Shown here: in pieces, positions 6,447 through 24,216 of the stretch | Layout: each line of letters starts with the position of its first letter | Numbering within the stretch: position 1 is the first letter of the stretch | Position numbers and translations under genes: made by a program | The notes under the pieces: model-generated | What the model was told of the DNA's origin: nothing | Database searches by the model: none | The model's input: only the letters and a program-made list of their open reading frames with translations | DNA from: a virus | DNA length: 24,216 nucleotides | Direction: 5' to 3' (one strand) | Virus record (IMG/VR): IMGVR_UViG_3300029319_000294 | Coordinates: 6,782 to 30,997 of that record

Positions 6447-9400
6447 TTAACCAAGATCTTTTCTTAGAGATCCATTATCTCTAAGTCCAAAGTCTCTTCT
6501 TTGGATTGTTGGATATGTCGTCAGACCAGAGTTTACGGTAAATCCAGAAACTCCGATACCGATAGCAGTTGATCCTCTCTTGAATCCAGATAATCTACCC
6601 CAGGAGAATGATCCACAATATGAACCAGTTGTAGTTCCAATACCAATGTGATTGGTAGTTGAAAGAATATTTGCTGTTACAATTCCTGTAAGGTTTTGTC
6701 TGGTAAATGCATGAACATAGTATATATTATCCGCAAATGTTGTTCCAATACCAACAACAGCACTATCACTATCATCAATAGATGTAATTCCTGTGCCAAC
6801 GGTCGTATTTGAAACCATAATTGGATAACCAACTTCTAAAGAATCAATAACTGATGTAGGTTCAAATTGTAAGTCGAATCTAACTGCTAGTGGATTGCCA
6901 CCAGTTCCAACACTAGTTGTGATACCAGTAATAATGCCACTATAACCAGAAACAAACTCAATACCAGTGATCAATTCATCTTGAACAACAGGTAGTGCTG
7001 TAAGTAAATCTGGAGTTGCTGTGGATGTATATCCAGAACCAGGATTAGTTATTGAAATAGAACCAATAGTTCCACCAGCAGAAACCGTTGTGGATGCAAT
7101 AGCACGAACTTGATCTTGATATAAACCAAAATCAAATGTTCTTACAAGTGTTCTGGTATTTGCTGGAGCTTTATTAAGTTCAATAGAATCTGTGCCAACT
7201 CCAATTACTGTGAATGTCTTATCTATGATTTCGAGTGCCCCATCAAATGCTCTATTCAGGGAGTGTCCAACTCTAATTGATGATGGATCAATTCCAGTTA
7301 TTACTGTAGATCCAATACCAACTGTTCCGACCTTATCTTTAATTTCTGGTTTAAAGATATCGGTTCCAATACCACCAATTGGTGTTGCAACAACAATAGT
7401 AACATTTGATCCAGGATCATATCCACTACCACCATCAACAATATCAATTGATGAAATTGTTCCAGCAGCAGATACAACAGCAGTTAAAGCACATGCAACA
7501 GGTTCTGGATTACCAGATACTAATAGACCAGAAACTTGATTGATAGTTATTGCAGATTCATTTTCTTCATAATTGAAGAGTTGTGCAGAATCAACAAAAA
7601 TCTCAGTATCTGTTGAAGTGAAATCTTTAATTACTTTAGCAGTTGGGAAAACCATACCCTCTAAAGAATCTCTAGTTTTTGGTTGTGCATTATCACCAAC
7701 CAATAGATCTCTCTTCTGCTTATTCCACTCAATGGGTTTATAATTAGTTTCATCAATACCATCACCAAGGTAAATTCCAGTTTCAATAGTATCTGCAGAT
7801 ATGATTGAAGATACAATTCTTGAATCTTGTGAAATTGTATTGACACTTAAGGAATCGTTTTTCAATACTCTAATTTCATCACCTGGTTTAATTGATTCAT
7901 CAACATCAACTTCAACACTATCAACATCTCTAGTTCCTCTATAGAAGAATACATCAACTTTGTCTTCTTTCTTAGGTGGTTCATTGAATGAGAATGTTGT
8001 TCCACCATCAAATGTGTATGAGTTACCTGGTTCCTGCATAACACCATTAACATAAATCAACAAAATTGCATCAAAATCAATGAGAGAAGATGTTACATCG
8101 GAATTATTTTTTTCAAAACTGAGTAGTTGATTATTCTTGAATAGTGGGAATCTAGTTCTTATACCATCTTGTCTAGATGCATTGCTATCAATGTAATCAA
8201 ATTCACCTAGTTGCCATGAGGAGAATGAGTCATTAAACACCTCAGTGACAGTGAATTCAATCTCAGAAATAGGTGATGATAATCCTGCAGCAGTAACTAA
8301 ACCAACTGGTTTAAATACATCACCCTTTTTGAATGAATAACCTGGATTTGTAATTTCAAATCGATCAATTTCAAAGTATGAAGTGCCAATACCAACAGAT
8401 GATGGTGACAGATCAAATGTCATTGATAAACCAATACCTGTTGCTGTTGTTGCACCAAGTCCAAGTCTTGATACTCCAGTAACAGATAGATTATCGTAAG
8501 ATGGACTATCAACTGATACAACTGGATTGATGTATCCACTACCACCATCAACAATATTAAATGCTAATGTTCCACCAGCACCAACAGTAGCAGTGATATT
8601 TGCACCAGTTCCTGCACCACCAGCAGGACCAATATTTACAGTAATTGTATTTGTAGTTACCGCAGTAATTGCAGTATGAATACCAACAACAGGATCAGTT
8701 GATCTTGGGTATAATTGATCAGTTTTAAAGTTATCACTAGAGCACTTGAATGTAAGTGATTCTCTTGCAATCTGAACTTCATCATTAACTGTCAACCCGT
8801 GATTCGGAACTGTTAATACAAGAACACCAGAATGTGAAGTATACTTAGCATTTGTTGGTGTTTTAGCATTACCAGCAACAATGGAATTAGCAACGGCACT
8901 AACAAATGTGTGTGCATATTGTTGACCAACTGGAGATGCTCCAACATTAACAGTGACCGTATTTGCAGTTGTTGCAATAATATCTAATGTTGCACCAAAT
9001 GCTTGGTCTGTTGTTCGTGGATATGTGTGATTGGATGAATTACCGTCCTTAGTGCAAGTAAACGTTAATGAATTTGCAGCAATGGTGAGAACATTATCAG
9101 TAGTTAATGTATGAGAACCTATAGTAAGTCTTAAAGTTCCAGTGGTTTGATTGTAAACCGCAGCAGTTGCTGTAAATACTCCAGCAGTATCATCAGCGAT
9201 TGAATCTGTTTGTGATTCAACAAATCTATGTTCATATGCAAGGTCAGTAACTGCAACACCAACAGATCCACGATATCCAGAACCAAAGGTTAATTGTGGG
9301 AAATATTGGCGAACAGTTCCACCAGATTCATATGTATGTGGAATTGTGCTTGTTCCAACATTAACTTCAAATGTCTTCGCGGAAGAAATACCAGTAACTG

Positions 9401-12400
9401 GATACTGGAATCCTTGAGTTCCATCTGGGAATATTGTTGTAGTCACACCAGCATGTGGTGCAGCACAAGAGAACTCTAAATCATTCAAATATACAAATGT
9501 TCCCGATCCATACAGATTATGTGGTGTTGCTGTAGTGATCTCAAGAATACCAGTCGATTCAATATAACGAGAAGTGCTGATATTAATTTGAGAAGAACTG
9601 AATGTAGAAACACCAAGTAAACCAGAAATTGATTTTCCAGCACCGATGGTTGGTTTTACCTTAGCATTAACTAGTGGTGCATATCCAAGACCACCAGTAG
9701 CTGCAACAGAGATTACAACACCACCTCTTGGAATTTGATTCTGGTTAACATCTTCTTCAGAGATGATAATATCATTAGATCCTGATCTGGTGATTCCAGT
9801 GAATGTAACACTAGAAATTCCAGTTACTTCATCAGCACTAAAGGAATAATTGTTACCAGTATTATTAGAAGTATCAGGAGTCTGGAAAATATCATTAATG
9901 AATACTAGGTTGCTTCCTGCTTCCAGTCCAAGAGTGTTTTCACCCTCCTTATAAACACTAAATGTTCTTCCAATTCCATTAAATCCTAAAGAAATATCAT
10001 CATATACAGTATTACCAGTATAATCTTGTCTTAGATAAACTCTACCATTAAATGTTGATTTTGGAAGAGACAATGCACTTTCATTTAATCTGTCATTGTT
10101 GCCCTTACCATCAGGAGCTTCTGTAAAGTGAATCTTATTACCAACAATATTGAATGCACCCTTAAAGATTCTTGCTTCAGAACCATCATTGTGTGATGTT
10201 GCTGAAGTTCCAACAAATCCTCTGGATACATTAATCAATGGAACTGTTCCAATACCACTGATTGGACCTGATGTTGTAGTTCCAAATCCTACATTTTGAA
10301 TTTCTAAGAACTCTTCATCTACTTTAAGAATATCTCTTGGTTTAATTGAAGAAATACCAGAAAGTGATATGAAGGAAACAGCGGCACCAATAGTTGTTCC
10401 TCCATTATTTTCCAAATTAAATGTTAATGGAGTATATGCTAATGGATATTGAGTTACACCATCAATAGTAATAAGTGCTTTTTCAAGCTTCTTCTTCATT
10501 TCAAGTTTATGGCGATTTCCAGTTCCAACATCCGTAAATGTGAATCCTATTCCACTACCACCAGCAGTTCCTGTTAACTTAAATGTATCCTTAGAAAGTC
10601 TGATTGCGTATACTCTAGAAGGCATCTTATCAGTAGTGATACCTGTAGTAAATACTTCTCTGATCGTCGATGCAGTAGAAACATTCGACATGGTCACCGA
10701 CCAATTTGGATTATCAACAAAATATGTTCTATCATCACCACCAACAATCGATGTGGATGCCGTTATAGAATTAATACCAATAGCAATGACAGTTCCTAAT
10801 GAAGTGTTATCTCCAGAGAAAATTCCAGAACCAACTTTGATAACTGATGTATTACCAATACCCGTAATTACTGTTGCACCTGCACTTACAACATCGCCTT
10901 GGAAGTATGAATTAAAGGTTTGAATACCCGTGATTGTAGTATTTGCAGCAATTCCATCACCAAATAGTAGAGCACCAGAGGTTAAACCTGTTGAATTTGC
11001 AATACCAGTAATTGTAGAGAAACCTGTCTCAACAATATCACCAGTGAATAAAGTTCCGTTAACAACAGTAGTTCCAATACCAACAGAAGTTGCAGCAATG
11101 CCAATCAATGTTGATGTTGGAGTGTAAATTAATTCCTCACCAGTTTCGAAGAAGTGGTCATCAATACTAAAGACACCAGTAGATCGATTTAATGTATTAG
11201 TGTTTGCTGGATTAAATGCTTTTTCATAAATTGGGATAGATTTATAATTTAGATCAAAATCAGTCTTATCCTTACCAAAGACATTAATTGAACCATAGAA
11301 AGAATTTGCAAGGTCTTCTTCAACAGTTCCTACAAGGTATGCTGGAGGAATATTGAACTCATCAATGTCAGTGTAAATATGCTGACTATACGCTTGATGT
11401 GTAATAGTATCAGATGCGAATTCTGGATCTGGGTGGAATTTAACAATTACATTACCTCCAACCATTTCGGAAGAATATGTTCCAATACCGTTTGATGTGT
11501 TGACATTGATGAATGGTGATGATTGAATAGTACTTCTCTGTTGATCAGCAACAACCATCAAGTTCTGAACTACTGTGGTTTCACCTACACCAATTCTTAT
11601 AATTGATTTTTGGCTGAATTGGAGCACACTATCAAACTCAAATACAGTGGCAACACCGACTGTTTCTTTTAATTGTGAATCAAACTTTGCAGTTCTTTCC
11701 GTTCCTGGAATTTGACCAGGAACCAAGAATCTATGTGTTCCAACTCCAGCACCAGTAGTTCCTATTCCAATTGTCTTTGTCTTAACAATTAGATTGTTAT
11801 TGATATTATTTTCAAAATTGAGACTAATAACACCACCAGAAACATTTAAACCAAATGTGCCAATGTTTGCACCAGAGAATGATGATGATGGTATAGTATC
11901 ATAGTAGAATTCTGATACATGATTATCTTGTCCATCATGATGAGCAACTACTTCGAAGTAGTTCATTCTATTGGTATCAGTATTCAGAACTTGTGCAAAG
12001 GTGTATAATGTATCATATTTACTGGAAAGTGCTTCAAAAACATCAGTCTTAAATCCAACTAATCCATTTCCATTTGCAGGACCCAGTCTCTTAGTTCTTC
12101 CATCAATTCTAAGGAAACCAAATTCAGTAAAACCAGTTCCAACTGTAGTAGAAGGTGCGAAAGACTCTCTATAAACTTTAACATTATAATTGAAGTTATT
12201 TGGATCAACAGGATCAAATCTTAAAGTTGGATCTCCACTAGGAGCAAAATCTCCAGATAAAGTTCCAAGTTTCTTATCTGTGAAAATATCTACTTTATTC
12301 AATGTATAAGTGTTATCAAAGTCATTCAATACAACAACTTCACTAAACTGAGAACTAATTTTATCCTCATCAGAAATTTGAACTAAGAATCTTGAATAAA

Positions 12401-15400
12401 AATCAGTAATTGGATATTCTATTGTTTCAACAAAAGTATCCTTGTTAAATTCTGCGCTTGAGAATCTATTACTAATATCATCAATTTGCAATACTCTATT
12501 AGTTCTACATTCAATAAAGTCAGAGAGTCTTCTATTTTTAAAAATTACAAATCTTGAAGTTTCACTAGTTGCATCATAATCTTGAACCAAATCAAAGTTA
12601 TTAATCGTGTCAACTCTTCTTTCACCAACAAAATCAAGAACAGTTGAAACAAATGAATCAGTTAATCCAATAGAAACAGTAGATTTAGACATCAACTGAG
12701 TGTCGGCAAAGTTCAACATCCCTGATGGATGGACATGACGACTTACATCTTCCTGGATAGTTTCAAATTCTTTTGGACTTTGAATAGTATATGAAAGATT
12801 TTGATAATAGTGATTATCAGGAATAACTTGCAATGAATTGCTCAATCGACCAACATCGTCTTTCCAACCAAAATTCTTTTTACTAGAATAATCTACGGAG
12901 AATCTTCCTTCAAAATCAGTAATAGAGTTAATAGTTGCAAAAACACCAGAGTTGATTCCTTTTAACTTATCACCAATTTTTACTTTATAATCACCATCAA
13001 CTTTAACCAATCCTTGCTCAACAACAGTAGTTACTAAATCAGTTTTATTACCATTTACGGTTAACTCTTCTCCAAGGAAGAAAATACCAGGTTCAATGTT
13101 TAATTTAAATGTTGGGAAGTTTTGTTTTTTAACAACTGCAGTAAATCCAGTTTGTAGTTCTTGTGGAGTTCCTGCATTAGTTGTTAAATCACCAATGTTA
13201 AACTTCAATATAGCTGGATTTGAGTTTGTGAACTCAACTACTCTAAAGAAATTATATCCATTATCTTCAGAGTTAAATCCATTACCAGGTGAAGTTACAT
13301 TACCAAGAGTATCTGTGAAAGATTGTTTTCTCAGTCCTTCAACAAAAATTTCATCTCCAACAGCAAATGGTGGATTTGCAAAACCATCAATTGGTGGAGT
13401 GCTTAATTCTAGAGTTACAATGCCATTACTATAATCAGTAATTTTTTCAACTTGAACACCATTACTATTCAATATTGGGAATAAACGGTGCTCGACAGAA
13501 TCTAGACCCTTTGGTTCAGCAATAACATCTACACCAACAATGGTATTTCCCGAAAATTGTGTCTCTAAAGAATATGTGGAGGAATCAATAACCTCCCTAG
13601 TATACATGTTAACAATGATAAGACTTGGTGGTGAAAGATAATTTCTACCTCCATCTAGCACACTAATCGATTTTACAATATCTGTTCCACCTAAAGTAAA
13701 TAATTTTGAAATTTTTGCCTGAGGTCTTAGCGTTTTATCAGAAGCATATTCAAATCCTTCATTAACAATTCTGAAATTGTTTAGTTTACCAATCGATTCT
13801 GTTACAGGTCTAATAATTGCATTAGATCCAACAGTTGCTGCAGTTCCAGATCCTAAACCAGATATAACTGGTAATCTTGAATAATTGGAACCAGTTGAAA
13901 CTGTTGTTATTCTGGATATTGGTCCAGAAGCAGTTTTCGAATTCGTTGTGTATTCTAGAGTATCGGTATTTGTTGATGTGTATGATAATGCTTCTGGGAG
14001 TTCACTTGGGGAGATATTGAAGGTTGTAGATCCAACTCCAAATACATTGTAAGATCTGTTATACTTACTATCAATGTATATAATTTCTGAAGAATCAACA
14101 ACATCAGCGTCTGGTTTAATAGAAACACCATCTTTTTCAAAAGAATAATATAATTTTGTTGGTAGATCTTTACTATATGTAATAGTATAAGAAGAAGTTA
14201 CACCGCTAACTACACCCTCAACGACAGAGAATGTTGATGTTGTTCCTGTGGAAACGAATTCATTACTAAGGTTTTTATCATAGAAGAATTTAAATTCATA
14301 ATCCAATAGAGAACTATCAGAAACATTGAAAACAATATTATTATTTTTAAATACTTCAATTTGTGGGTTTAGGAGACTAATTTCTTGATTAGCACCACCA
14401 GTGCTTGCAATACTAACAATTACTGGTGGATTAGAAACAGTATCATTATACGTTTTTGCTAAATTAAATTTATCATCATCAACCCTGAATACAAAATATC
14501 CTCCAGTTTCTAAACCACTAGAAACTAAATCTGTGGCATCATAGAATACTTTTTGACCTGTTTTGTAACCATGACTATTAAGAGTAATAGTATTATCATC
14601 GGTATTAATTTTATCTGAACCAAATCCAACACTATCAACTAGAATCTTTTTATAAGTCGTATTATATTTGACATTTACAGATGGATTTGTGCCAAAACCA
14701 ACAGATTGATTTGGTGTTACTGTAAGATCAATAGAATCACCGTTGTTTAAGTTATGGATGGTTGAGATAGAAACCTGTGTTTTTATCTTCTTCGCATTTG
14801 CAGTTATTTCATTAAACTTGGTTGTAAAGGCATATTCAAAACTATTGTTAGTATTAACATTAGTTGCAGGGAAGAATAAACCACCTGTTGTGGTTGTAAG
14901 TCCAACTTGAGTTACAATGCCAATAAAATCTTTTCCTTTATTAATAACATAAACTGGTTGATTTGCTAATGCAAATGTTAAACCACCAGGAGTATCTCGG
15001 ACATCAATTCCAACAAAACCAGTAGGAACAGTAAATTGAACTTCTTGGTTATTTTTGAATGGATGATTTGGTAAGAAAATTGACTGAGTTGGGACAGAAA
15101 TTGTTTTTGGAGATCTTCCTACATGATATCCAAGAGATGTATCAGTTCCAGTTTGCAATCCAACACCAACAGATTCGAAGGGATTAAAATAAACGCTGTA
15201 ATTCTTTTTAGAATCTATCTCTTCTTCAGATTTTACTGGAATAGTGAAGAAATCATTTTTTACACTTACTAAATCAGCAAATGTATGAGAAGCTCCTACA
15301 ACACCTCTCTTGACACGTAAGACATTTTCATCACCAAATACGTTTAGAACCCTGAGGGTTTCACTACCAATTCCAATAGAAGTTCCAGATCCAATTACAG

Positions 15401-18400
15401 ATGAAAGTGATGAAACGTAAATGTCTGTAGATATACCACGATCTGCAGAAATGTAATCTGTTAATCTTGTCGTATTGGAAGAAACACCAATTACATGTGA
15501 TCCGATTAACCCTTCAACGTGAGTTGAAATACCAGATATTTGAATAGTATCCTTATCCAAATATTCATGAATTGTATTAGTGTATATTTTAAGAGTTTCT
15601 GAATTTTCTCTTTCAACAACAGAATTTTCATACTTAAGATATTCTGTAGAAATCTCGTTAATTTTTCTACCAAATACTCTAGATACCTCTGCTGCTGCAC
15701 CACCGCCACCAGTGCCAGCATTATTATAGATTAAAGAATTACCAACTTTATAATCATCACCAGAATTTACAATTACAAAAGATTCAACTGAACCTTTAGA
15801 TGCAGATTCAACAATAGTTGTTTGATCAACAGGAGAATTTGATTCGAAGAGAAAATCACTTCCCGAGTATTGTTTTGCTGTTCTATATGGGAATGTATTT
15901 CTAACAAGACTTGATTTATTAAAATCAAACGTTTGATCCAGTCTTTCAGTAATTACTTGTGATCTATAAGTATCACCAACAAAATAAGGGAATGCTGGAT
16001 CTAATTTTCCAGTAACAACATTTGTAGATACGCCTACAAAATATGCATATACACCATTAGGAAACTCTGGAGTCTTAGAGTATCTTCCGTTATGATAATC
16101 TAAATCACCACTGTCATTGAATTTAAAGTCTTCAATAAAGTATCCAGATTCAAATACATCAAGAGATGGGCGATTTTTAATATCGGAAGATGCTTCAACA
16201 TAACCACTGACTAATCTTCTAGTTGGTGAGTTATCATCATTAGGATCAGAAAATGCATATGGTCCATAAATTGGATTGCCATCATTTGCCCATCCAATAA
16301 CTTTAGAGTGTTCATCCTCAGAAACTGAATCTAGGAAAGATGCACCATCTCTGTCAGTTGAATAACCAACAACACCATATGATAAACTATCTTCATAATT
16401 TGAAAGTAGTTCATCAGAGAATCTCTTCAAGTTATTGACACGAAGATATCTAACGTTTGATTCTAAAACTACATTTCTACCAGGTGGTTTAACATTGATA
16501 CTTGTATTATTTTCTTTATATCCTGTTCCTTTATTAATAATAACTACGTCAATAATTTTACCATCACTTACAACTGCTCTTAATTTTGCACCAACACCTT
16601 CACCATTGATCTCCAAATCTGGTGCAGCATCATAAAATTTTCCACGATTTTGAACTTCAACTGCAACAATATATCCTCTCTTAACAATAGGTTTTAGTTG
16701 AGCACCCTGTCCTGTTTTTGTAACAACTTTTGGATTTCTATGGAAGTTTAAAATATTTGATCCATAGTCAGATCCTTCTTCATAAACATATACGTCAGTA
16801 ATCTGACCACGAACAATTGGAGTTGTAAAAATTGTATTGATTCCACCAGACCCTGGAGCAAATTCTGCATCGATCTTGACTTGAATTGGTGGATAAGAGA
16901 ATATTTGATACCCCTCACCAGAAGTAGAACCAAAACTTACATAATTTTTTCTATTATAATTTGTTCTTGCTGCACCAACCGCTTCTGCAAGTTGGAACTC
17001 AGAATCATTTAATTTTAGAATTCTATATTGTGTAGAACTGGAAAGACCAGAAACTGCAGAAGTTTGGAATGTATAATTGATTAAATCACCATCATTAAAT
17101 CCATGATTATCAGATTTAATAATATTTGTGATTGTAGATATACCAACTGGATGAACTCTGAGTTTTCTATTGGTAAAACCAGAACCAGGATTTAAAACTT
17201 TAATTTCAGAAACAACATTTTGCTCATCAAATGTTCTAAACTTATGAATACCACCGGTGTTAACAGTAGTAAAACCAACTGTATTAATACCTGCAGAATA
17301 ATCAGCTAGATTTTTGTATAAGTAAATGGATTTTGTATTAATAATTTGTGGATAATAAATTCCACCATTCACCAAATTATCATTTTGATTTGTATTTGAT
17401 CCACCAAAAGAACCAATACCAAGAGGTAGGTTACCACTAGAACTATAAACAATTCTTTGACCATCAACTAGGTTGTGGAAGTTTTCAAACGTTAGAGCAT
17501 CGTTAACAATATCAATACCACCAGTTGCTGCAACACCAACTCTAGATGCGTTAAAAGGCATCTCTCTGAATTGTTTAGAAACAACTGCTTCTAAAACAGC
17601 ATCTTTACCATTACCACCCTCTATAGTTGTTGATAGAACTCTATTAATACTAAAATCTTGTGGATCAACAATAACTTCTTTAACGGTGCCAGTAACAACT
17701 GTTTGTGCTCTTGCAGTTGTTCCTGTCGAAATAACAGGATCAGAAATTTCAAGTTGTGGTGGATTTAGAACATCATAATCTGCTCCACCATTCAAAACTT
17801 TAATATTATCTAAAGGACCATAGTAAACCCTATCATCAGATTTATAGTTTTGAATTTCAACACCATTAATCATTAAACCAACAGGTCCAGGTTCTGTTGG
17901 TGTATTCTTTCCAGATTTAATGTCAGGAACTAATGGGAAGTTTACTAATGATTTTTTCGCTTTTAAATTTTTATTGTAATGTTGTTTTAGAGTGAATGTA
18001 TGATTTGTTGTGGTATTGAACGCAGTATCTTGCAACCCCACATGTTGACTTGTTCCAATGAATGAACGTGCATTATATAATTTAATTCTATTCGTTCTAA
18101 CAGGATTTGTATCTCTTATAACTTCAACATAGTAGACTCTACCGAATTCCAATCCAACAATTTTATTACCATCACCAGTATAAATTACTTCATCTCCCGT
18201 CATGAACGGAACATCATTGGCAAATGATAATGTGGAATATGTTCCAAGAGTTGGGAAAAATCCTTGGTAAATATTATTTAAATTTGTTGTTGGTGTAATG
18301 GTAATTGTTGCTTCCGAAATTTCTTTCGTTATGTCATAATCTGGAAGTGAGTTTGATGCAACATACATCCCACTAGGTTTTTCACTATAAGTATTTTGAA

Positions 18401-20015
18401 CATTAGACAAAATCTTATCGGATTCTAGTTGAATACCAGATGAAGTAGTATAATCAAACCTCTTACGTATGCTTAAATCTCTATTGGATGCAACGTTAAT
18501 TGACTGATTTATCTGAACTTCCTTTCCATTTACAGAGGTAACAACTGCATTAGATACTACGATATTTTCGGCATTTCTATCTAAAATATCTACAGAATCA
18601 TTTTTCTTAAGACTTGATTTATCTGCCGTTTCAAATAAAGTTACTGTATTATTTGAGAAACTTTCAATTTCATATCTTGTTCTGGTATTGTAAATCCAGG
18701 TATTGAAAGCAAATTGCTTATAATTTTCGTCATTATTGACAATACTATCACCCAGATTTTTGACACTAATTAAATCATCATTGAATAATAACGTATATTG
18801 ATCTTTATCCTCAATATCTGACATTACGCCAGTAATTCTAAGATCTACTCTCTTTGATGTATCACCATCTTCATATCCATAAACAGTATCAGTTTGTGAA
18901 TATGCAAGAGTTCCTGGTGTAATTGCAGAAGTAATTCCACTGCAACCAAAGAATTGATTGATACTCTTATCTGTATATTCTATCTTTTGATCATTAACAT
19001 TTATAATACCCGTTTGACCAAAACCAATAGTGCTATCTACGGTAACTACTGAGGATCCAATAGAAACATTATCAGAAATTAAACTATTGGGTGTAATATT
19101 AAATGTTCCTTCAATTAGACTTTTCTCATTGTATCCAGAGAAAAGTTGAATTTTATAGAACGTTTTTTTATTTCTAGTAATAATCTCAACTTCTGATACT
19201 GGACCAGTAGCAGTATCTCTATAATTGTTGATCATTTGACCAACAAGTTTATTTGGATCACCAGAAAGTTGCTCACCAACAAGAACTCTTCTTCTTATAA
19301 ACTCTGCATAAGAGGGTTTTAGAAGGAAATCTTCTAAGTTAATAACTTTAGGAACTTCATTATATAAGATTGCAAATAGAATTCTAAAAGATTCTTCGGT
19401 TCCTTTACTTTGATATAGATTACGAATCTGCTTGATGAGATTGTTTACATCAAGAGAACTCTCAAAACTAACATCTTCAAATCCAGGTGCAAGAAGATAT
19501 TTTAATTTTCTATAAAACTCTTTAAGAAATAAAGAACTTAAATTTTTAACCTGAGTTCCAGTGGTATGAGAATCTGCTGCTGAAGATTCAAATACTAATT
19601 CTTCAGCATCTAGACGATCCCTATACGAGGTAATTCCACTAAATCCACGAATACATCCAGTAAAACTATTTGTGGTTATTCCAGTATATGTAATAATCTC
19701 ATCATTTAGTCTAAAAAGACCATAATCTTTAGGGAAACCACCTGTAGTTGTTACGTTAATTGTAGTATCGGTAGACGTAACATTGGAAGTTATTGAAGTA
19801 TGATCAGTTAAAATTTCTGGTGTTAAATTATTAAGACTTAGATATTGATCTAAATTCTCGACAATATCAATTGCACCTCCCCTAAATTCCTGGGAAGTAT
19901 AATACTGCTTGAGAAAGTCTACGACTTTAGGGCTTTCATTTAAAATGAATTCTGGTAATTGGCTATCAATGACTTGCTGTACTTTTACCCTAGCGTCAAA
20001 ACCAGTAGTGATCAT
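6447..20015 (-). CDS. gp7: Giant gp7-like baseplate wedge protein (4522 aa) with YHYH domain and repeat modules
   Basis: It lies between gp6 and gp8, exactly where T4 has gp7 (1032 aa), the wedge protein linking gp6/gp53 to gp8 and gp10. Resemblance to the C-terminal third of recalled T4 gp7 is split into blocks: QLPEFILNESPKVVDFLKQYY near residues 18-39; LYQSKGTEESFRILFAILYNE near 198-218 (T4 FYSTKGIEASYKFLFKVLYNE); and VSRHVHPSGM ending at residue 2433 (T4 VIRFVHPVGF). Between and after them are Gly/Thr/Val-rich modules: four RG-containing modules, many G-x-GY units, a YHYH domain (about 1200-1340), a tandem 48-aa pair (about 2988-3080), three ~100-aa repeats from 3484, and three NGV-x-Q modules. 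No signal peptide or membrane segment is seen. The ATG has a good SD (AGAGGA, about 5 bases upstream). It is probably virion-associated at the baseplate. The gp7 identity rests on synteny plus short blocks; 'large virion structural protein' is the safe minimum. Confidence 0.88.
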   Translation of the reverse strand: MITTGFDARVKVQQVIDSQLPEFILNESPKVVDFLKQYYTSQEFRGGAIDIVENLDQYLSLNNLTPEILTDHTSITSNVTSTDTTINVTTTGGFPKDYGLFRLNDEIITYTGITTNSFTGCIRGFSGITSYRDRLDAEELVFESSAADSHTTGTQVKNLSSLFLKEFYRKLKYLLAPGFEDVSFESSLDVNNLIKQIRNLYQSKGTEESFRILFAILYNEVPKVINLEDFLLKPSYAEFIRRRVLVGEQLSGDPNKLVGQMINNYRDTATGPVSEVEIITRNKKTFYKIQLFSGYNEKSLIEGTFNITPNSLISDNVSIGSSVVTVDSTIGFGQTGIINVNDQKIEYTDKSINQFFGCSGITSAITPGTLAYSQTDTVYGYEDGDTSKRVDLRITGVMSDIEDKDQYTLLFNDDLISVKNLGDSIVNNDENYKQFAFNTWIYNTRTRYEIESFSNNTVTLFETADKSSLKKNDSVDILDRNAENIVVSNAVVTSVNGKEVQINQSINVASNRDLSIRKRFDYTTSSGIQLESDKILSNVQNTYSEKPSGMYVASNSLPDYDITKEISEATITITPTTNLNNIYQGFFPTLGTYSTLSFANDVPFMTGDEVIYTGDGNKIVGLEFGRVYYVEVIRDTNPVRTNRIKLYNARSFIGTSQHVGLQDTAFNTTTNHTFTLKQHYNKNLKAKKSLVNFPLVPDIKSGKNTPTEPGPVGLMINGVEIQNYKSDDRVYYGPLDNIKVLNGGADYDVLNPPQLEISDPVISTGTTARAQTVVTGTVKEVIVDPQDFSINRVLSTTIEGGNGKDAVLEAVVSKQFREMPFNASRVGVAATGGIDIVNDALTFENFHNLVDGQRIVYSSSGNLPLGIGSFGGSNTNQNDNLVNGGIYYPQIINTKSIYLYKNLADYSAGINTVGFTTVNTGGIHKFRTFDEQNVVSEIKVLNPGSGFTNRKLRVHPVGISTITNIIKSDNHGFNDGDLINYTFQTSAVSGLSSSTQYRILKLNDSEFQLAEAVGAARTNYNRKNYVSFGSTSGEGYQIFSYPPIQVKIDAEFAPGSGGINTIFTTPIVRGQITDVYVYEEGSDYGSNILNFHRNPKVVTKTGQGAQLKPIVKRGYIVAVEVQNRGKFYDAAPDLEINGEGVGAKLRAVVSDGKIIDVVIINKGTGYKENNTSINVKPPGRNVVLESNVRYLRVNNLKRFSDELLSNYEDSLSYGVVGYSTDRDGASFLDSVSEDEHSKVIGWANDGNPIYGPYAFSDPNDDNSPTRRLVSGYVEASSDIKNRPSLDVFESGYFIEDFKFNDSGDLDYHNGRYSKTPEFPNGVYAYFVGVSTNVVTGKLDPAFPYFVGDTYRSQVITERLDQTFDFNKSSLVRNTFPYRTAKQYSGSDFLFESNSPVDQTTIVESASKGSVESFVIVNSGDDYKVGNSLIYNNAGTGGGGAAAEVSRVFGRKINEISTEYLKYENSVVERENSETLKIYTNTIHEYLDKDTIQISGISTHVEGLIGSHVIGVSSNTTRLTDYISADRGISTDIYVSSLSSVIGSGTSIGIGSETLRVLNVFGDENVLRVKRGVVGASHTFADLVSVKNDFFTIPVKSEEEIDSKKNYSVYFNPFESVGVGLQTGTDTSLGYHVGRSPKTISVPTQSIFLPNHPFKNNQEVQFTVPTGFVGIDVRDTPGGLTFALANQPVYVINKGKDFIGIVTQVGLTTTTGGLFFPATNVNTNNSFEYAFTTKFNEITANAKKIKTQVSISTIHNLNNGDSIDLTVTPNQSVGFGTNPSVNVKYNTTYKKILVDSVGFGSDKINTDDNTITLNSHGYKTGQKVFYDATDLVSSGLETGGYFVFRVDDDKFNLAKTYNDTVSNPPVIVSIASTGGANQEISLLNPQIEVFKNNNIVFNVSDSSLLDYEFKFFYDKNLSNEFVSTGTTSTFSVVEGVVSGVTSSYTITYSKDLPTKLYYSFEKDGVSIKPDADVVDSSEIIYIDSKYNRSYNVFGVGSTTFNISPSELPEALSYTSTNTDTLEYTTNSKTASGPISRITTVSTGSNYSRLPVISGLGSGTAATVGSNAIIRPVTESIGKLNNFRIVNEGFEYASDKTLRPQAKISKLFTLGGTDIVKSISVLDGGRNYLSPPSLIIVNMYTREVIDSSTYSLETQFSGNTIVGVDVIAEPKGLDSVEHRLFPILNSNGVQVEKITDYSNGIVTLELSTPPIDGFANPPFAVGDEIFVEGLRKQSFTDTLGNVTSPGNGFNSEDNGYNFFRVVEFTNSNPAILKFNIGDLTTNAGTPQELQTGFTAVVKKQNFPTFKLNIEPGIFFLGEELTVNGNKTDLVTTVVEQGLVKVDGDYKVKIGDKLKGINSGVFATINSITDFEGRFSVDYSSKKNFGWKDDVGRLSNSLQVIPDNHYYQNLSYTIQSPKEFETIQEDVSRHVHPSGMLNFADTQLMSKSTVSIGLTDSFVSTVLDFVGERRVDTINNFDLVQDYDATSETSRFVIFKNRRLSDFIECRTNRVLQIDDISNRFSSAEFNKDTFVETIEYPITDFYSRFLVQISDEDKISSQFSEVVVLNDFDNTYTLNKVDIFTDKKLGTLSGDFAPSGDPTLRFDPVDPNNFNYNVKVYRESFAPSTTVGTGFTEFGFLRIDGRTKRLGPANGNGLVGFKTDVFEALSSKYDTLYTFAQVLNTDTNRMNYFEVVAHHDGQDNHVSEFYYDTIPSSSFSGANIGTFGLNVSGGVISLNFENNINNNLIVKTKTIGIGTTGAGVGTHRFLVPGQIPGTERTAKFDSQLKETVGVATVFEFDSVLQFSQKSIIRIGVGETTVVQNLMVVADQQRSTIQSSPFINVNTSNGIGTYSSEMVGGNVIVKFHPDPEFASDTITHQAYSQHIYTDIDEFNIPPAYLVGTVEEDLANSFYGSINVFGKDKTDFDLNYKSIPIYEKAFNPANTNTLNRSTGVFSIDDHFFETGEELIYTPTSTLIGIAATSVGIGTTVVNGTLFTGDIVETGFSTITGIANSTGLTSGALLFGDGIAANTTITGIQTFNSYFQGDVVSAGATVITGIGNTSVIKVGSGIFSGDNTSLGTVIAIGINSITASTSIVGGDDRTYFVDNPNWSVTMSNVSTASTIREVFTTGITTDKMPSRVYAIRLSKDTFKLTGTAGGSGIGFTFTDVGTGNRHKLEMKKKLEKALITIDGVTQYPLAYTPLTFNLENNGGTTIGAAVSFISLSGISSIKPRDILKVDEEFLEIQNVGFGTTTSGPISGIGTVPLINVSRGFVGTSATSHNDGSEARIFKGAFNIVGNKIHFTEAPDGKGNNDRLNESALSLPKSTFNGRVYLRQDYTGNTVYDDISLGFNGIGRTFSVYKEGENTLGLEAGSNLVFINDIFQTPDTSNNTGNNYSFSADEVTGISSVTFTGITRSGSNDIIISEEDVNQNQIPRGGVVISVAATGGLGYAPLVNAKVKPTIGAGKSISGLLGVSTFSSSQINISTSRYIESTGILEITTATPHNLYGSGTFVYLNDLEFSCAAPHAGVTTTIFPDGTQGFQYPVTGISSAKTFEVNVGTSTIPHTYESGGTVRQYFPQLTFGSGYRGSVGVAVTDLAYEHRFVESQTDSIADDTAGVFTATAAVYNQTTGTLRLTIGSHTLTTDNVLTIAANSLTFTCTKDGNSSNHTYPRTTDQAFGATLDIIATTANTVTVNVGASPVGQQYAHTFVSAVANSIVAGNAKTPTNAKYTSHSGVLVLTVPNHGLTVNDEVQIARESLTFKCSSDNFKTDQLYPRSTDPVVGIHTAITAVTTNTITVNIGPAGGAGTGANITATVGAGGTLAFNIVDGGSGYINPVVSVDSPSYDNLSVTGVSRLGLGATTATGIGLSMTFDLSPSSVGIGTSYFEIDRFEITNPGYSFKKGDVFKPVGLVTAAGLSSPISEIEFTVTEVFNDSFSSWQLGEFDYIDSNASRQDGIRTRFPLFKNNQLLSFEKNNSDVTSSLIDFDAILLIYVNGVMQEPGNSYTFDGGTTFSFNEPPKKEDKVDVFFYRGTRDVDSVEVDVDESIKPGDEIRVLKNDSLSVNTISQDSRIVSSIISADTIETGIYLGDGIDETNYKPIEWNKQKRDLLVGDNAQPKTRDSLEGMVFPTAKVIKDFTSTDTEIFVDSAQLFNYEENESAITINQVSGLLVSGNPEPVACALTAVVSAAGTISSIDIVDGGSGYDPGSNVTIVVATPIGGIGTDIFKPEIKDKVGTVGIGSTVITGIDPSSIRVGHSLNRAFDGALEIIDKTFTVIGVGTDSIELNKAPANTRTLVRTFDFGLYQDQVRAIASTTVSAGGTIGSISITNPGSGYTSTATPDLLTALPVVQDELITGIEFVSGYSGIITGITTSVGTGGNPLAVRFDLQFEPTSVIDSLEVGYPIMVSNTTVGTGITSIDDSDSAVVGIGTTFADNIYYVHAFTRQNLTGIVTANILSTTNHIGIGTTTGSYCGSFSWGRLSGFKRGSTAIGIGVSGFTVNSGLTTYPTIQRRDFGLRDNGSLRKDLG
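8620..9566 (-). repeat. Three ~100-aa protein repeats in the giant protein
   Basis: Copies begin at residues 3484 (YIESTGILEI), 3621 (YNQTTGTLRLTIGSHTLT) and 3725 (YTSHSGVLVLTVPNHGLT). Copies 2 and 3 are 104 residues apart and the most alike, sharing NSLTFTC/ESLTFKC, YPRTTD/YPRSTD and NTVTVNVG/NTITVNIG. Copy 1 is diverged (LEFSC, FEVNVG). The 'HGL..gd.v.i...slTFtC...YPR..D...vtVNvG' pattern recurs in tail-fibre-like proteins of marine T4-like phages. Confidence 0.8.
10780..11052 (-). repeat. Tandem 48-aa protein repeat (two copies) in the giant protein
   Basis: Two adjacent units start FTGDIVETGFSTITGI and FQGDVVSAGATVITGI, each followed by a 'GLxxGxxhFGDGIxxxTxITGI'-like half, 48 residues apart. 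Such 'GD..xG...ITGI..t..L..G..V' units are common in phage fibre-type proteins and suggest short beta-strand repeats. Divergence at DNA level means they are old, not recent duplications. Confidence 0.7.
12560..12765 (-). other. Second gp7 homology block (HPSG motif) of the giant protein
   Basis: Residues about 2418-2485, with ETIQEDVSRHVHPSGM ending at residue 2433, then NFADTQLMSK and a more polar stretch rich in Asp/Asn. T4 gp7 has VIRFVHPVGFGFIAITLLTMF downstream of its KGIEASYKFLFKVLYNEE motif. Here the two motifs are about 2200 residues apart, so the intervening repeats look like insertions into the wedge domain. Confidence 0.6.
16000..16420 (-). other. YHYH domain within the giant protein
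   Basis: Residues about 1200-1340 contain SKVIGWANDGNPIYGPYAF (about 1233-1253) and LDYHNGRYSKTPEFPNGVYAYF (about 1299-1321), the two signature segments of the YHYH family: a 'dG-PIYGP' turn and an 'hNGr-..tpe-p.G.YaYF' strand. The domain occurs in bacterial secreted proteins and in large structural proteins of marine T4-like phages. Its function is unknown, and a carbohydrate- or surface-binding role is only a guess. Confidence 0.8.
19340..19965 (-). other. gp7 N-terminal homology blocks of the giant protein
   Basis: Residues about 18-225. The segment runs QLPEFILNES, VVDFLKQYY, then (after an inserted module at about 70-150) LFLKEFYRKLKYLLAPG and finally LYQSKGTEESFRILFAILYNE. It parallels the order in T4 gp7, where a helical stretch on fibre/hub contacts precedes STKGIEASYKFLFKVLYNEE. 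This is the part most likely to bind gp6/gp25 in the wedge. The comparison is with a recalled T4 sequence and is inference until profile alignment is done. Confidence 0.7.
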
Positions 20016-20027
20016 ATTTCCTCTCTA

Positions 20028-21890
20028 TTACCTTGTTATTTTTCCGTTTAAGTAACTTGATTTCACTGGGAAGTTCACTCCAGAAATTTGCTCTCCAGAG
20101 GCAATCGTATCCTTAACCATATTTATAGTGCTTTTCGAGACATCGAAGATGAGATATAAGTCCTTCAAACCGATAACATCATTTGAATCTGGGATTGCTT
20201 GAATCTCTACAACGTTCTCTGGAAGATCTGTTGAAGTAATATTAATTGTATTGACAATGATTTCACCTTTCTTGTAATCAACTGTTCCAATTGATTTTTT
20301 AACAACTTCAAAAGTATCTGGATCTAGTGTTGGTTTAACAATTGAAAGGATACCAATATCACTATTTTCTACTGGAACATCTAAGAAATATACAGTTTCT
20401 GCTTCACCAGCAACTTTAAATCCAGTGCTCTTAATACTAGAACCATCTAGTTTTTTAAAGAACTTATTACCAAAGCAAATTTCATATTGAGCAAATGTAT
20501 TAGTAATACAATTCATATTCCTTCTCATCTTCACTTTAGTAATATTGGAAGTAATGGAAGTATCTACATTATCAATGATTTGAAGAACTTTACTATATCT
20601 AAATCTTCCACCAAACTTATTCATATCAACAGTTTTGGAATGTTTGGTTAGAGATGCTATGATACTTGATCTTAATGATGCAATATCTGTAATCTTAGAA
20701 GAATCATAGAAGACATCACTCTCAAGTTCAACAAATAGTAGTTTGAGATCTGATAATTCTTGTTTGACACCAGATACAGTGTATTGCTTCAGATCATTTA
20801 AAATTTGTGTTTTTGCGAAGTCGGAAATAGCATAACCATTTTTTGGTTTGATACTAATAACAACCTTACCAAACTCTGGTGGATCTAACTCTTCGCCACC
20901 AACAACAGCAACTGATTCGGTGCTTGGGAATACCTGTTGTATGATTGCCTCATAATCCTTCGCTGTAACGGCACGATACTGCGAAGAATACACTCTAGGG
21001 GCAAAGTATTTGATTGAATCAATTGGTTCAATTGAACCGCCTCCTATTGCCTTCTGAGTGGTTGTTACTGATGGTGTTGAGACTGGTGAAACAGTAAGAC
21101 CGTTGCTATCTGTAGTTGTTCCAGAATACTTAAACAATGATGGTCCATTACCATTTTCACCATCGGTCACAATATAAGAAACTTGAATTACATCACCCGA
21201 TGATAATTTCTTACCAATAATTCCATCACCGAAAAGAAGTTCATATTTTTCATCTGCAACTTCTTGAATTAGATAGATTTCAGATTCTTTATCAACAGTA
21301 ATAATATTATCTACTTGCTTATACTCTTTTGTCCCAATTCTTACTTTAATAGTTGTTGTATCAATATTGGGATTATTTAAAATAAATCTTTGGTCCTGAG
21401 AGGTATCTACAATAAACTCCTTTGTTAGATACGTTCCCTGACAAATTTCTAAATCAGTAAATGTTGCCTGATTATTAACGATATTGGCGCTCACATCGCC
21501 TGGAACAGAGAAAGTGTATGCACTGTTGTTAACTGCCCCAACACACACTAAACCTGCCTTCAGGATCAACTGAGAGGCAGTTGTCGATACATCTATAGTA
21601 AAACTAACCGTTGCCTTTGCTGCAGTTTTTGATCTAGGGACATATCCAATATTTCTTGCTAAAGAAACAACATTCTCTCTGAGAGTTGCCGAATCCAAGA
21701 AGGATTCATTAGCAACCATGTTAGAGTTGAATGCTGTAATATACGTATTATATGCTAACGTATCGATCAGAACAGAAAAGTTAGATCCTTCAAAGTCAAA
21801 ATCCGTGAAATCAGAATTAGCACGGAGATAATCTTTGATAGATGTTTTTATCTGATCAAAATCTAGATTGGTAAACTTAGTAAAAGGCAT
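20028..21890 (-). CDS. gp6: Baseplate wedge subunit gp6 (baseplate J-like)
   Basis: 620 aa, close to T4 gp6 (660 aa). gp6 dimers form the ring joining adjacent wedges and contact gp25, gp53 and gp7. The N-terminal helical part has the conserved LRENVVSLARNIGYVPRSK near residues 69-87. The baseplate_J-type core shows FGDGIIGKKLSSGDVIQVSY near 220-239 and YRAVTAKDYEAIIQQVFPS near 300-318, then KVVISIKPKNG. The C-terminal domain is variable. It starts with ATG 4 bases after the gp25 stop and ends 12 bases before the giant gene, whose SD lies in that gap. A TATAAATA box falls inside its last ~35 codons. Synteny 25-6-7-8 agrees with T4. Confidence 0.96.
   Translation of the reverse strand: MPFTKFTNLDFDQIKTSIKDYLRANSDFTDFDFEGSNFSVLIDTLAYNTYITAFNSNMVANESFLDSATLRENVVSLARNIGYVPRSKTAAKATVSFTIDVSTTASQLILKAGLVCVGAVNNSAYTFSVPGDVSANIVNNQATFTDLEICQGTYLTKEFIVDTSQDQRFILNNPNIDTTTIKVRIGTKEYKQVDNIITVDKESEIYLIQEVADEKYELLFGDGIIGKKLSSGDVIQVSYIVTDGENGNGPSLFKYSGTTTDSNGLTVSPVSTPSVTTTQKAIGGGSIEPIDSIKYFAPRVYSSQYRAVTAKDYEAIIQQVFPSTESVAVVGGEELDPPEFGKVVISIKPKNGYAISDFAKTQILNDLKQYTVSGVKQELSDLKLLFVELESDVFYDSSKITDIASLRSSIIASLTKHSKTVDMNKFGGRFRYSKVLQIIDNVDTSITSNITKVKMRRNMNCITNTFAQYEICFGNKFFKKLDGSSIKSTGFKVAGEAETVYFLDVPVENSDIGILSIVKPTLDPDTFEVVKKSIGTVDYKKGEIIVNTINITSTDLPENVVEIQAIPDSNDVIGLKDLYLIFDVSKSTINMVKDTIASGEQISGVNFPVKSSYLNGKITR
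20120..20127 (-). promoter_or_regulatory. T4-type late promoter box inside the gp6 3' coding region, ahead of the giant gene
   Basis: Exact TATAAATA on the minus strand, overlapping the codons for the T-I-N-M stretch of gp6, about 105 bases before the ATG of the giant gene. It is one of only three exact copies I found, and each precedes a wedge gene. Because it lies in coding sequence the match could be accidental in AT-rich DNA. Confidence 0.5.
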
Positions 21891-21894
21891 TATT

Positions 21895-22293
21895 TTATCT
21901 GGTTGCCTCTAGGATGAATGAAAATTGTTGTGGTGGAACCTCTTGTCCAACAATGTTATAGGATATAAAGATCTCAAATTCGTTTCTATCCGCATTTGGA
22001 TCTACTCTAACCCGAACATTGTTTATCCTTGGTTCGTAGTTTTCAATTGCAACTAAAATCTGATCCTCAAGAAGGGATGCAGTACCAAAATCAACAAATT
22101 CAAATAAACTAGTTTTTACGTCAGAACCAAAAATAGGGTTAAAAAATCTCTCACTGGGAACAGTTTGCACAATATTACGGACTGCTTTCTTGATTGCATC
22201 CTCATTTTTAATATTGAGGATATCATTAGTTACAGGATGCCTATCAAATGATAGACTAATGTCCTTAAACGCTCTGGATATCCTCTGAACCAC
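21895..22293 (-). CDS. gp25: Baseplate wedge subunit gp25 (GPW/gp25 family)
   Basis: 132 aa, the same length as T4 gp25, the small wedge protein that fixes gp6/gp53 to the hub at the start of sheath assembly. Residues 50-65 (FFNPIFGSDVKTSLFE) match recalled T4 FDPEFGCDLSDQLFE, and IENYEPRI at 83-90 matches T4 VRNYEPRI, the family's core EPR segment. The N-terminus RISRAFKDISLSF is typical of marine T4-like phages, which supports this start. The start codon is GTG (CAC on the plus strand at 22291-22293), with no strong SD. A TATAAATA box lies 26 bases upstream, so this is probably the first gene of the late wedge transcript. gp6 begins 4 bases after its stop. Confidence 0.95.
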   Translation of the reverse strand: MVQRISRAFKDISLSFDRHPVTNDILNIKNEDAIKKAVRNIVQTVPSERFFNPIFGSDVKTSLFEFVDFGTASLLEDQILVAIENYEPRINNVRVRVDPNADRNEFEIFISYNIVGQEVPPQQFSFILEATR

Positions 22294-22333: not shown

Positions 22334-22585
22334 TCAGAATAATTCGGTATTATCGTCTGCTTTCTCGTAAAGGTCCTCTTGATTCACCGTGTCGCGTTTT
22401 TTTGGTGTAATATCATCGTTTGAAATCTCACGAAGCATCTTTTGATGCTGATCATTTGCCAAATTATCCAAAAAATCGTGATTTGCAGTCATTTCTTCAT
22501 CTCTGTAGTAGTCTGTAACAAGTTTTGTGGTTCCCCACATCTCTCTCATGTAGTTTTTGTCTCTATCGACAGGTGAATTACCCAT
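22334..22585 (-). CDS. Small acidic hypothetical protein (83 aa)
   Basis: Not recognised. It is hydrophilic, with no membrane segment or signal peptide. The N-terminal half is probably helical (YMREMWGTTKLVTDYYRDEE, residues 12-31), a basic KKR follows at 62-64, and the C-terminal tail is acidic, ending DDNTELF. A strong Shine-Dalgarno AGGAG sits 5 bases before the ATG, which makes a real gene likely despite its size. It lies between the 158-aa gene (44-base gap) and the gp25 late promoter. An acidic helix plus hydrophobic C-terminus is reminiscent of clamp-binding late co-activators such as gp33, but that is a guess without sequence support. Confidence 0.75.
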   Translation of the reverse strand: MGNSPVDRDKNYMREMWGTTKLVTDYYRDEEMTANHDFLDNLANDQHQKMLREISNDDITPKKRDTVNQEDLYEKADDNTELF

Positions 22586-22629: not shown

Positions 22630-23106
22630 CTATCCCTTATTTTTATTTATTTTGCTTTTTATAAGATCGTAATCATCTTCAAGCACTTCTTTTAGATAAT
22701 TTTCATCCCAATAATCATAATAACTTGTTTTTGCAAGTTTTATTCTTGCTTCTGTTAGATCTTTTCGTGGTTGAACAAGAACTAAGTTGTATTTTCCGTT
22801 ATTAGATTGTATTTTATTAATAAAAGTATTAGTTTTTCCGTGATCTGCAATAAATTTATAGTCTTCGTACTTTAAATTATACTCATCTACAGCATTGTAG
22901 AGGTAATCGCTATCGTGATAATCTTCTACAATGTTAATTACAACATCATAATCAGGAGATGGAACAATTTCATCTAATTTTTGCTCGATAATAAGAAAAT
23001 TTGACTTTGATGCAAAAGGACACAACGAAAAATTACCTAATTCTGGTCTAATTTTAGATAAATCTCGGATCCATCTCCTAATATATCTACTTTTCTTGTC
23101 TCTCAT
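22630..23106 (-). CDS. Uncharacterised protein with LCPFA motif (158 aa)
   Basis: I place the start at the ATG at 23104-23106 (MRDKKSRYIRRWIRDL), which overlaps the upstream gene by 20 bases. A longer reading from 23163 would add 19 residues and a 77-base overlap. The N-terminus is a basic amphipathic helix, and SLCPFA at 27-32 follows it. That 'helix-W...LCPFA' layout recalls the start of DUF1415 proteins, whose function is unknown. The middle (VVINIVEDYHDSDYLYNAV) suggests an alpha/beta fold, and NLVLVQPRKDL at 107-117 resembles the strand before DUF1415's conserved end. The C-terminus is Lys/Asp-rich. Function cannot be assigned. The overlap implies co-translation with the 218-aa gene. Confidence 0.75.
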   Translation of the reverse strand: MRDKKSRYIRRWIRDLSKIRPELGNFSLCPFASKSNFLIIEQKLDEIVPSPDYDVVINIVEDYHDSDYLYNAVDEYNLKYEDYKFIADHGKTNTFINKIQSNNGKYNLVLVQPRKDLTEARIKLAKTSYYDYWDENYLKEVLEDDYDLIKSKINKNKG

Positions 23107-23743
23107 CGGGTGTTGTCCAAAAATAATCATCACAATCACCCAGTCTCCCCCATTCAACACCATTTTCAGTTTGGAAAATGTGTGTTGATACCTTAAAATC
23201 AGGTGTTTTGACTGGATCTGGGGTCATTGAGGTATCATAGATGCGACATCTATTGTTTGGATAGAGACAAAACTGTCCATTCCTCAATTCAATCAGGTTA
23301 AATGACTTATGTTCATCAGGGAGTTCACTAACGGATGCATCAATCTGATCAAAATCACCATGATAGTTATCAAGGGTACAGATATAAGTACCTTTTAACT
23401 CACCAAAGTGTCTTGTACGTACTTCCCATTCCATTGGTGCAACAAATTGCTTTTGAATCACAGTAAAATCATAATCCATACAATTCCAAAACTGTAAATT
23501 GTAGATATCCATATCAGGATTTGGAGGTTCTGGTCGCGATAAGAATGCCGATATAGGAAGTTTATCGAACATTGCTCCATATTCTGGTAGATAAGTTTCA
23601 AAATAAAATGCACGTCCTTGAATAGACTTAGCACATACCCAAATACCCTCTACATATTCACCATGACCATCTTTAAGATCACGGAGATATTCTTTTCTAA
23701 CCCATACTTTTTTTGTGGGTAAATTCGCTATCAAGTTTGCCAT
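23087..23743 (-). CDS. Conserved phage-type protein of unknown function (218 aa)
   Basis: I recognise the style (MANLIANLPTKKVWVRKEYL) as a hypothetical protein carried by marine T4-like phages, with no known activity. It is rich in aromatics and Trp (W14, W35, W86, W105, W198, W209) with no membrane segment. The C-terminal ENGVEWGRLGDCDDYFW (193-209) is its most distinctive part. IYDTSMTPDP at 168-177 and Cys at 88, 122, 159, 166 and 204 are notable, but no metal-binding pattern is evident. The ATG lies within the last codons of the upstream gene (13-base overlap), and the end overlaps the 158-aa gene by 20 bases, so the three form a tightly coupled unit. Confidence 0.85.
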   Translation of the reverse strand: MANLIANLPTKKVWVRKEYLRDLKDGHGEYVEGIWVCAKSIQGRAFYFETYLPEYGAMFDKLPISAFLSRPEPPNPDMDIYNLQFWNCMDYDFTVIQKQFVAPMEWEVRTRHFGELKGTYICTLDNYHGDFDQIDASVSELPDEHKSFNLIELRNGQFCLYPNNRCRIYDTSMTPDPVKTPDFKVSTHIFQTENGVEWGRLGDCDDYFWTTPDERQEK

Positions 23744-24171
23744 GTTTTAAAAAAATGTGAAATTTCGTAACCATCTAATTTAGATTTATAAGGAGAATCC
23801 TCTCCAAGATAGTAATATTCATATCCAAGACGTTTGTATAGCGCACACTCATTTTTATTTGCCATGTGCCCAATACTTAATTTGGGATTTTCATAATCCC
23901 AGGCAAACTGATCTCCATATACAGAATTTAAACTATCAAAACGATAAACTAATGAAAAGGCAACAAGTTTATCACCATCATAATATCCAACAATATCACA
24001 ATTCTTTTGTTCAAATTCTTCTCTAAAGATTGGTATTACACTGTCAAAGTTTTTGTACTCACAATACTTACGATATATTTCAAAGCACTCATCATAAAAA
24101 GAACTATCAAGAAGTTTATAGTTAGAAACCTCCTGATAGTTCGTATCTTTTAATTTAATTCGACAAAACAT
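23731..24171 (-). CDS. Putative GNAT-fold acyltransferase, Ate1/Bpt C-terminal-like (146 aa)
   Basis: The second half follows the pattern of the C-terminal domain of arginyl/leucyl-tRNA-protein transferases. DIVGYYDGDKLVAFSLVYRF (59-78) is the strand pair of a GNAT core. FAWDYENPKLSIGHMANKNE (89-108) parallels 'yFydPd...SlGtys.l.e', and LYKRLGYEYYYLGE (111-124) followed by YKSKLDGYE parallels 'a..lglpYyYLGyyi..c..M.YKa'. The Cys-rich N-terminal domain of Ate1 is absent, so this is a minimal version. It could attach an amino acid or acetyl group to a protein or small molecule; substrate and activity are unknown. Without alignment a generic GNAT acetyltransferase is equally tenable. The ATG directly follows a small GTTGT/ACAAC hairpin. 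Confidence 0.72.
   Translation of the reverse strand: MFCRIKLKDTNYQEVSNYKLLDSSFYDECFEIYRKYCEYKNFDSVIPIFREEFEQKNCDIVGYYDGDKLVAFSLVYRFDSLNSVYGDQFAWDYENPKLSIGHMANKNECALYKRLGYEYYYLGEDSPYKSKLDGYEISHFFKTWQT
23783..23790 (-). promoter_or_regulatory. Possible late promoter box (one mismatch) ahead of the 218-aa gene
   Basis: TATAAATC on the minus strand (7 of 8 with TATAAATA), inside the 146-aa gene and 40 bases before the ATG of the 218-aa gene. Placement fits a late promoter, but several 7-of-8 matches occur in coding sequence here, so it is weak. Confidence 0.25.
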
Positions 24172-24216
24172 TGTTGTGTATACAACTTTGGTTATTTACC
24201 TTGTCCGCGATATGGT
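24172..24216 (-). other. Right edge: leader of the 146-aa gene and possible 3' end of another gene
   Basis: The minus strand holds a degenerate late box (GGTAAATA, about 24200-24193) 22 bases before the ATG. A GTTGT-ATAC-ACAAC hairpin (24186-24173) lies between the box and the start. One frame reads PYRGQGK and then stops (TAA at 24194-24192), which could be the tail of a preceding same-strand gene cut by the window edge. The stretch is too short to decide. Confidence 0.25.

Follow-up and report, generated by a model that had tools for sequence, protein, structure and literature searches.

A small single-domain GNAT gene of the ATE_C branch and its linked partner gene, CPFA, in phages

The window, the whole stretch of 24,216 nucleotides analysed here, comes from a 31-kb virus record. 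Its minus strand carries a run of genes that begins 45 nt from the window end. The first, which we call the ATE-like gene (23731..24171, minus strand), has an ATG start and encodes a 146-residue, single-domain GNAT protein of the ATE_C branch in which the motifs SIGHMANKNECALYKRLGYE and YYYLGEDSPYKSK are present. The hexamer TAAATA, presumably a T4-like late-promoter-like motif, lies 22-27 nt before the ATG (24193..24198, minus strand). Of 31 loci, 13 have it in the 90 nt upstream, against a background of 5.5%; the window itself offers 45 nt only.

The next gene, p218 (23087..23743, minus strand; 218 aa, phrog_3704), overlaps the ATE-like gene by 13 nt, is widespread in cyanophages and has no Pfam match at E<=1. 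GenBank records label it 'ferredoxin', 'PurM' or 'transcriptional regulator', names that look like transferred errors. It is followed by CPFA (22630..23163, minus strand; phrog_10325), which has an invariant Cys-Pro and is listed at 177 aa with a start that may lie at the ATG at 23106, and by a small protein of 83 aa (22334..22585, minus strand) with a weak match to phrog_1414. Two baseplate wedge genes, gp25 (21895..22293, minus strand; Pfam and PHROGs matches) and gp6 (20028..21890, minus strand; PHROGs and GenBank matches), come four and five genes downstream of the ATE-like gene, which confirms the structural-gene neighbours claimed in the first-pass annotation. Directly after gp6 a single open frame of 4522 aa fills positions 6447-20015 of the minus strand; giant genes are annotated likewise in S-PM2 and S-SCSM2R. 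As the window has a GC content of 0.338 and its closest GenBank gp6 is that of Synechococcus phage S-SKS1 (61%), we assign it, on sequence grounds, to a T4-like phage of cyanophage type.

The ATE-like frame is a real gene under strong purifying selection, with dN of 0.014-0.13 against dS of 0.59-1.79 in five pairs that include the window gene. Its protein matched Pfam ATE_C (PF04377) with an E-value of 3.4e-6 and 28.1 bits against a gathering cut-off of 25, and no other Pfam family exceeded its own cut-off. ATE_C was also found at E <= 0.1 in all 22 members of relative set A1 and all 16 of set A3. When the window protein and 10 diverse relatives were scored singly, five of the 11 passed the cut-off and the remaining six scored 16.6-24.2 bits. 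A profile of the ATE-like proteins matched seven cellular ATE_C proteins with 88% probability (E 2.8e-6, 120 columns), aligning G101, Y121, G123, Y128, K129 and E136 with positions invariant in all seven. In sequence and profile searches of the PDB, Ate1 chains alone matched below E 0.01.

Among viral proteins the best match, at 50% identity, is an uncharacterised protein of 143 aa from an uncultured phage. Searching GenBank phages by tblastn gave no match, one search giving a single match at E 0.3, and the window protein matched no PHROGs family below E 0.05. Among 16 relatives two PHROGs families matched one member each (E 0.006-0.008), which we took as chance. Only one of 50 pattern matches in genome contigs is a cellular relative, whose 6.3-kb contig belongs to a Bacteroidetes MAG (L147) and is perhaps viral. 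It was the sole match in the bacterial genome scan.

The whole open frame around the ATE-like gene amounts to 154 aa, too few to accommodate an N-terminal Cys domain, and Pfam detected no ATE_N domain. The description of a minimal 146-aa protein without that domain is therefore accurate. The AlphaFold2 model (pLDDT 88.8, pTM 0.83) predicts one GNAT domain. Foldseek ranked yeast Ate1 (KlAte1, 7wfx) first, with E 5.6e-6 and TMq 0.66, and MprF-type domains close behind; Ate1 or MprF/PG-synthase chains make up 38 of the best 50 rows, many of which are chains of the same entries. Pfam, profile comparison and Foldseek thus agree with the proposed resemblance to the catalytic C-terminal part of Ate1/Bpt. 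The structural comparison suggested in the first-pass annotation did put Ate1 first, but acetyl- and myristoyl-CoA GNATs follow closely in structural score. In VIA, MprF (7f47) reached Z 15.5 with 139 residues aligned at rmsd 2.6, VipF with acetyl-CoA Z 14.9 and FemX (6snr) Z 14.5. Rows within 1 of each other count as tied, and the fold alone therefore does not choose the acyl donor.

A rival reading is a small CoA-dependent GNAT acetyltransferase whose sequence comes near ATE_C by chance, with CPFA as its substrate or regulator. Single-domain GNATs and VipF match the model at Z 12.5-14.9, the single GNATs near 13, and Acetyltransf_6 (PF13480) is the second Pfam match (E 0.0013) but stays below the family's cut-off. 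Against this, Acetyltransf_1 (PF00583) gave no match at E<=1 in the window protein or in relatives scored singly. The acetyl-CoA P-loop motif of GNATs is R/Q-x-x-G-x-G/A. It is not kept in 85 distinct ATE-like proteins, where the last glycine (G101) alone is invariant, the first is unconserved, position 96 is P or K and position 99 is S, F, Y, Q, G, R, K, T or another residue. What was found is a GNAT fold with no conserved P-loop; neither outcome that the first-pass annotation had named as contrary to its proposal, an ordinary acetyl-CoA GNAT with an intact P-loop as best match or the lack of a GNAT fold, came about. We think a CoA-dependent enzyme somewhat unlikely, although it is the rival that fares best.

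After identical and short proteins had been dropped (ATE-like proteins under 130 aa, CPFA under 140 aa), Y36, F42, P47, Y63, Q88, F89, W91, L98, G101, Y112, K113 and G116 were invariant in the 85 ATE-like proteins. At K129, which aligns with the invariant lysine of the YK pair of cellular ATE_C proteins, 73 have lysine, 11 methionine and one a gap. FemX and DhpH-C use a lysine, as described in an excerpt of PMC12945691. The family is acidic, with a median net charge of -3 over 85 proteins.

The strongest clue to function, overlooked in the earlier reading, is the linked CPFA gene. Relatives found with the ATE-like protein alone, the window excluded, gave 123 distinct contigs, many of them near-identical and not independent lineages, and CPFA lies near the ATE-like gene on 111 of these; the remaining 12 end on the CPFA side before CPFA could appear. 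The count merged repeated fetches and omitted copies of the window (L039, L148), the cellular loci L149-L160 and the GenBank cyanophage loci L087-L089, which had been chosen by CPFA; in one of the relative searches the best 80 of 105 matching relatives were taken as loci. CPFA is upstream on 33 contigs, separated by -28 to +2 nt (stop codon not counted), and downstream on 78, of which 76 have it on the same strand 570-711 nt away and two on the opposite strand. In window-type loci p218 sits between the two genes, while in distant T4-like phages the pair usually overlaps. Because gene order differs in this way between clades, the link is not inherited synteny alone. The neighbourhoods vary too, with gp25 and gp6 in the window, gp21, gp22, gp23 and a gp19-like gene ahead of the module and uvsY behind it in L136, and a T4 baseplate-family gene beside the module in L093. 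Distant carriers that could be judged (L136) are, by their gene content, T4-like too.

CPFA also matched 25 GenBank cyanophage records, and in the three examined it lies just upstream of gp25 with no ATE-like gene near. In cells it was found in two of 296 genomes, that of L147 and one with a weak partial match (E 4.2e-4), and tblastn found none in plasmids. All 86 CPFA proteins compared share C29, P30 and A32.

Such tight linkage would also suit a GNAT fold that has lost catalysis and acts for CPFA as a binding or chaperone subunit. Loss of the YK lysine in 11 of 85 proteins and the lack of any known donor site left intact fit this idea, but the invariance of Y36, Y63, Q88, W91, Y112 and K113 in all 85 is what would be expected of an active site, and we consider a dead subunit improbable.

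Tagging of proteins and use of tRNA are not supported. Yeast ATE1 holds tRNA mainly via helix alpha-f, residues 109-146, according to an excerpt of PMC10115844. By phmmer, residues 63-127 of the ATE-like protein align with yeast Ate1 235-299. Only some 25 residues then precede the corresponding helix, so that on this collinear alignment the protein is probably too short to include alpha-f. Another reading, in line with the N-degron-style role first proposed, is a pared-down Ate1/Bpt aminoacyltransferase that attaches Arg or Leu at N-termini, labelling proteins of host or phage for degradation. It is the most doubtful of the alternatives: it can draw on ATE_C homology and the first rank of Ate1 in Foldseek, but the ATE_N Cys domain is missing from a frame of 154 aa, the tRNA helix seems not to fit, the family is acidic, the YK lysine is methionine in 11 of 85, the nine loci scanned held no tRNA genes (a weak point), and CPFA has no Pfam ATE_N match. 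The last result also speaks against CPFA as an ATE_N domain acting in trans. With the Cys domain absent, the acetyl-CoA P-loop not conserved and no sign of tRNA use, the ATE-like protein is not an Ate1/Bpt member.

What CPFA does can be approached through its predicted structure (pLDDT 91.7). Foldseek returned nothing at E<=0.001 for this model. In VIA the five best rows were all AglA (Z 5.3-5.8, 132-139 aligned of 158), the next row scoring 3.7; the best, with Z 5.8 and 135 residues aligned at rmsd 4.1, falls in a range where a common arrangement can explain the match. According to an excerpt of PMC12866846, AglA is a heme-containing hydroxylase of arginine guanidine groups whose axial ligand is Cys44, and its own best DALI scores are at most 5.4. 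Like AglA and the YqcI/YcgG heme-thiolate guanidine N-hydroxylases, the CPFA model appears to place its cysteine in a loop after the first helix and to have four strands; counted from the ATG at 23106 it has 158 aa, most AglA entries 274. No sequence similarity between CPFA and AglA was detected. Membership of the YqcI family (PF08892) was rejected, as there was no Pfam match and hhalign against four YqcI-family proteins gave 0.3%, and NCBIfam matches of CPFA were at chance level alone.

A second hint of heme may come from DUF6875, which in Pfam searches of CPFA proteins reached at best 23.5 bits against a cut-off of 24.5, over the N-terminal part only. DUF6875 is reported to bind heme in an excerpt of PMC13307353, which also cites a bioRxiv paper on 'cytochrome P422' (DUF6875). 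The domain was found in none of 247 genomes of the phylum of the L147 genome, but controls were also 0, so the scan is uninformative. A literature search on '7-hydroxytryptophan' with heme found no paper. We treat the heme reading of CPFA as a lead.

A third gene accompanies the pair in some distant relatives. A relative of Arg amidinotransferases lies within 1.2 kb on 12 of the 123 contigs, often overlapping the ATE-like gene. It resembles L-Arg:Gly amidinotransferase, SxtG and HsvA, with phmmer E-values down to 2.7e-12, and D89, H220 and C356, an Asp-His-Cys set that we take to be the catalytic positions, are invariant in eight of eight proteins. No such gene was seen by eye among the window ORFs, and none was found in 13 window-type records searched, all possibly fragments. 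One distant record (G003) has two amidinotransferases elsewhere in the record. A DUF6614 gene is near or adjoins the pair on six contigs (L090, L091, L092, L093, L094, L095).

L090, L095 and L163, which carry distant relatives, hold cassettes in which genes that by eye are radical-SAM-, glycosyltransferase- and methyltransferase-like accompany the amidinotransferase. In L147 CPFA, the ATE-like gene and the amidinotransferase gene form a single overlapping run, and behind it lie several genes that by eye are 2OG-Fe(II) oxygenase-like.

The ATE-like gene of the window's clade carries a further feature. A terminator scan flagged a hairpin stem inside the frame (24101..24142, minus strand), about 30-71 nt past the ATG, with a stem of 15-17 bp. 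From 131 regions, 68 of them distinct, 49 distinct window-type sequences were used for the pairing count. Standard pairs fill 97.4% of the 735 hairpin cells, compared with 30-50% for slid controls and 93.1% for shuffled ones. Two pairs have both partners replaced, each in 11 sequences, perhaps through one event; neither the number of such pairs nor that of pair types exceeds the shuffles. The outer-stem codons are nearly frozen (Y12 TAT in 49 of 49, N11 AAC in 48, L21 CTT in 48), and the 62 other conserved codons of the gene have a median entropy of 0.9 bits. As its G-U pairs work on the mRNA strand only, the hairpin points to an action as RNA, possibly in translation control, attenuation or RNase processing. 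Each locus has one copy; the hairpin is absent from distant clades, and 44 sources gave no further copy at E below 0.01 beyond the ATE-like gene and its own reverse strand. Rfam gave 0 matches on the window.

The main finding is a linked phage gene pair. The nearly constant pairing of the ATE-like gene with CPFA suggests an undescribed two-gene chemical modification module. Building on what is established, namely ATE_C homology, a single GNAT domain with neither ATE_N nor a conserved P-loop, purifying selection and the almost perfect link to CPFA, we give a probability of about 0.4 to a one-domain acyltransferase of GNAT fold, from the branch that contains Ate1 and Bpt, working with CPFA as a two-protein module in marine T4-like phages. 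We favour a module for modifying an amino acid, perhaps at a guanidine group, a chemistry that we infer. CPFA may be a small oxidase, based on thiolate-ligated heme or on the cysteine in some other way, whose target is an amino acid or guanidine group. The ATE-like protein would make or break an amide bond on CPFA's substrate, possibly from aminoacyl-tRNA, and the adjoining Arg amidinotransferase, where present, might supply or remove an amidino group. The outcome, during infection, would be a chemically altered amino acid, peptide or protein side chain. Counting against this reading are the weak fit of CPFA to AglA, the 13 window-type records that gave no amidinotransferase, an acidic family too short for the yeast tRNA helix on the collinear alignment, the high Z of VipF with acetyl-CoA, methionine at K129 in 11 of 85 proteins, CPFA in three cyanophages with no ATE-like gene close by, and the tblastn outcome in GenBank phages.

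A bolder form of this acyltransferase-CPFA reading, which we hold to be unlikely, is a portable arginine/guanidine module. CPFA would be a miniature Cys-ligated heme hydroxylase, joined by an aminoacyl ligase reduced from the Ate1 fold and sometimes by an amidinotransferase, giving an N-hydroxyguanidine-type conjugate during infection, with the hairpin setting the ligase dose in one clade.

Our literature search of open-licence papers found no report of a phage gene of this kind. If active, the ATE-like protein would point to an undescribed chemical step run by many marine T4-like phages during infection, and the fixed partner gene offers a direct experimental handle. With the C-terminal domain of Ate1/Bpt (PF04377) it has in common the GNAT fold and the LG, Y.G, YK and E positions; it differs in being one 146-aa domain with no ATE_N, CPFA-linked and virus-borne, with no evidence of tRNA use. 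It is like the acetyl-CoA GNATs (VipF, RimI and others) in fold, with Z up to 14.9, but unlike them in that the P-loop is not conserved. MprF and Sba18-type aminoacyl-tRNA transferases carry two GNAT domains. FemX does so as well, according to an excerpt of PMC12945691. Nearly the whole of the predicted model fits the C-terminal GNAT half of FemX, MprF and Sba18 (Z 12.8-15.5), whereas the ATE-like protein has one GNAT domain in place of the two of the FemX/MprF dupli-GNAT. Should it prove active, it would be an ATE_C-type enzyme of very small size, revealing what one GNAT half can do alone.
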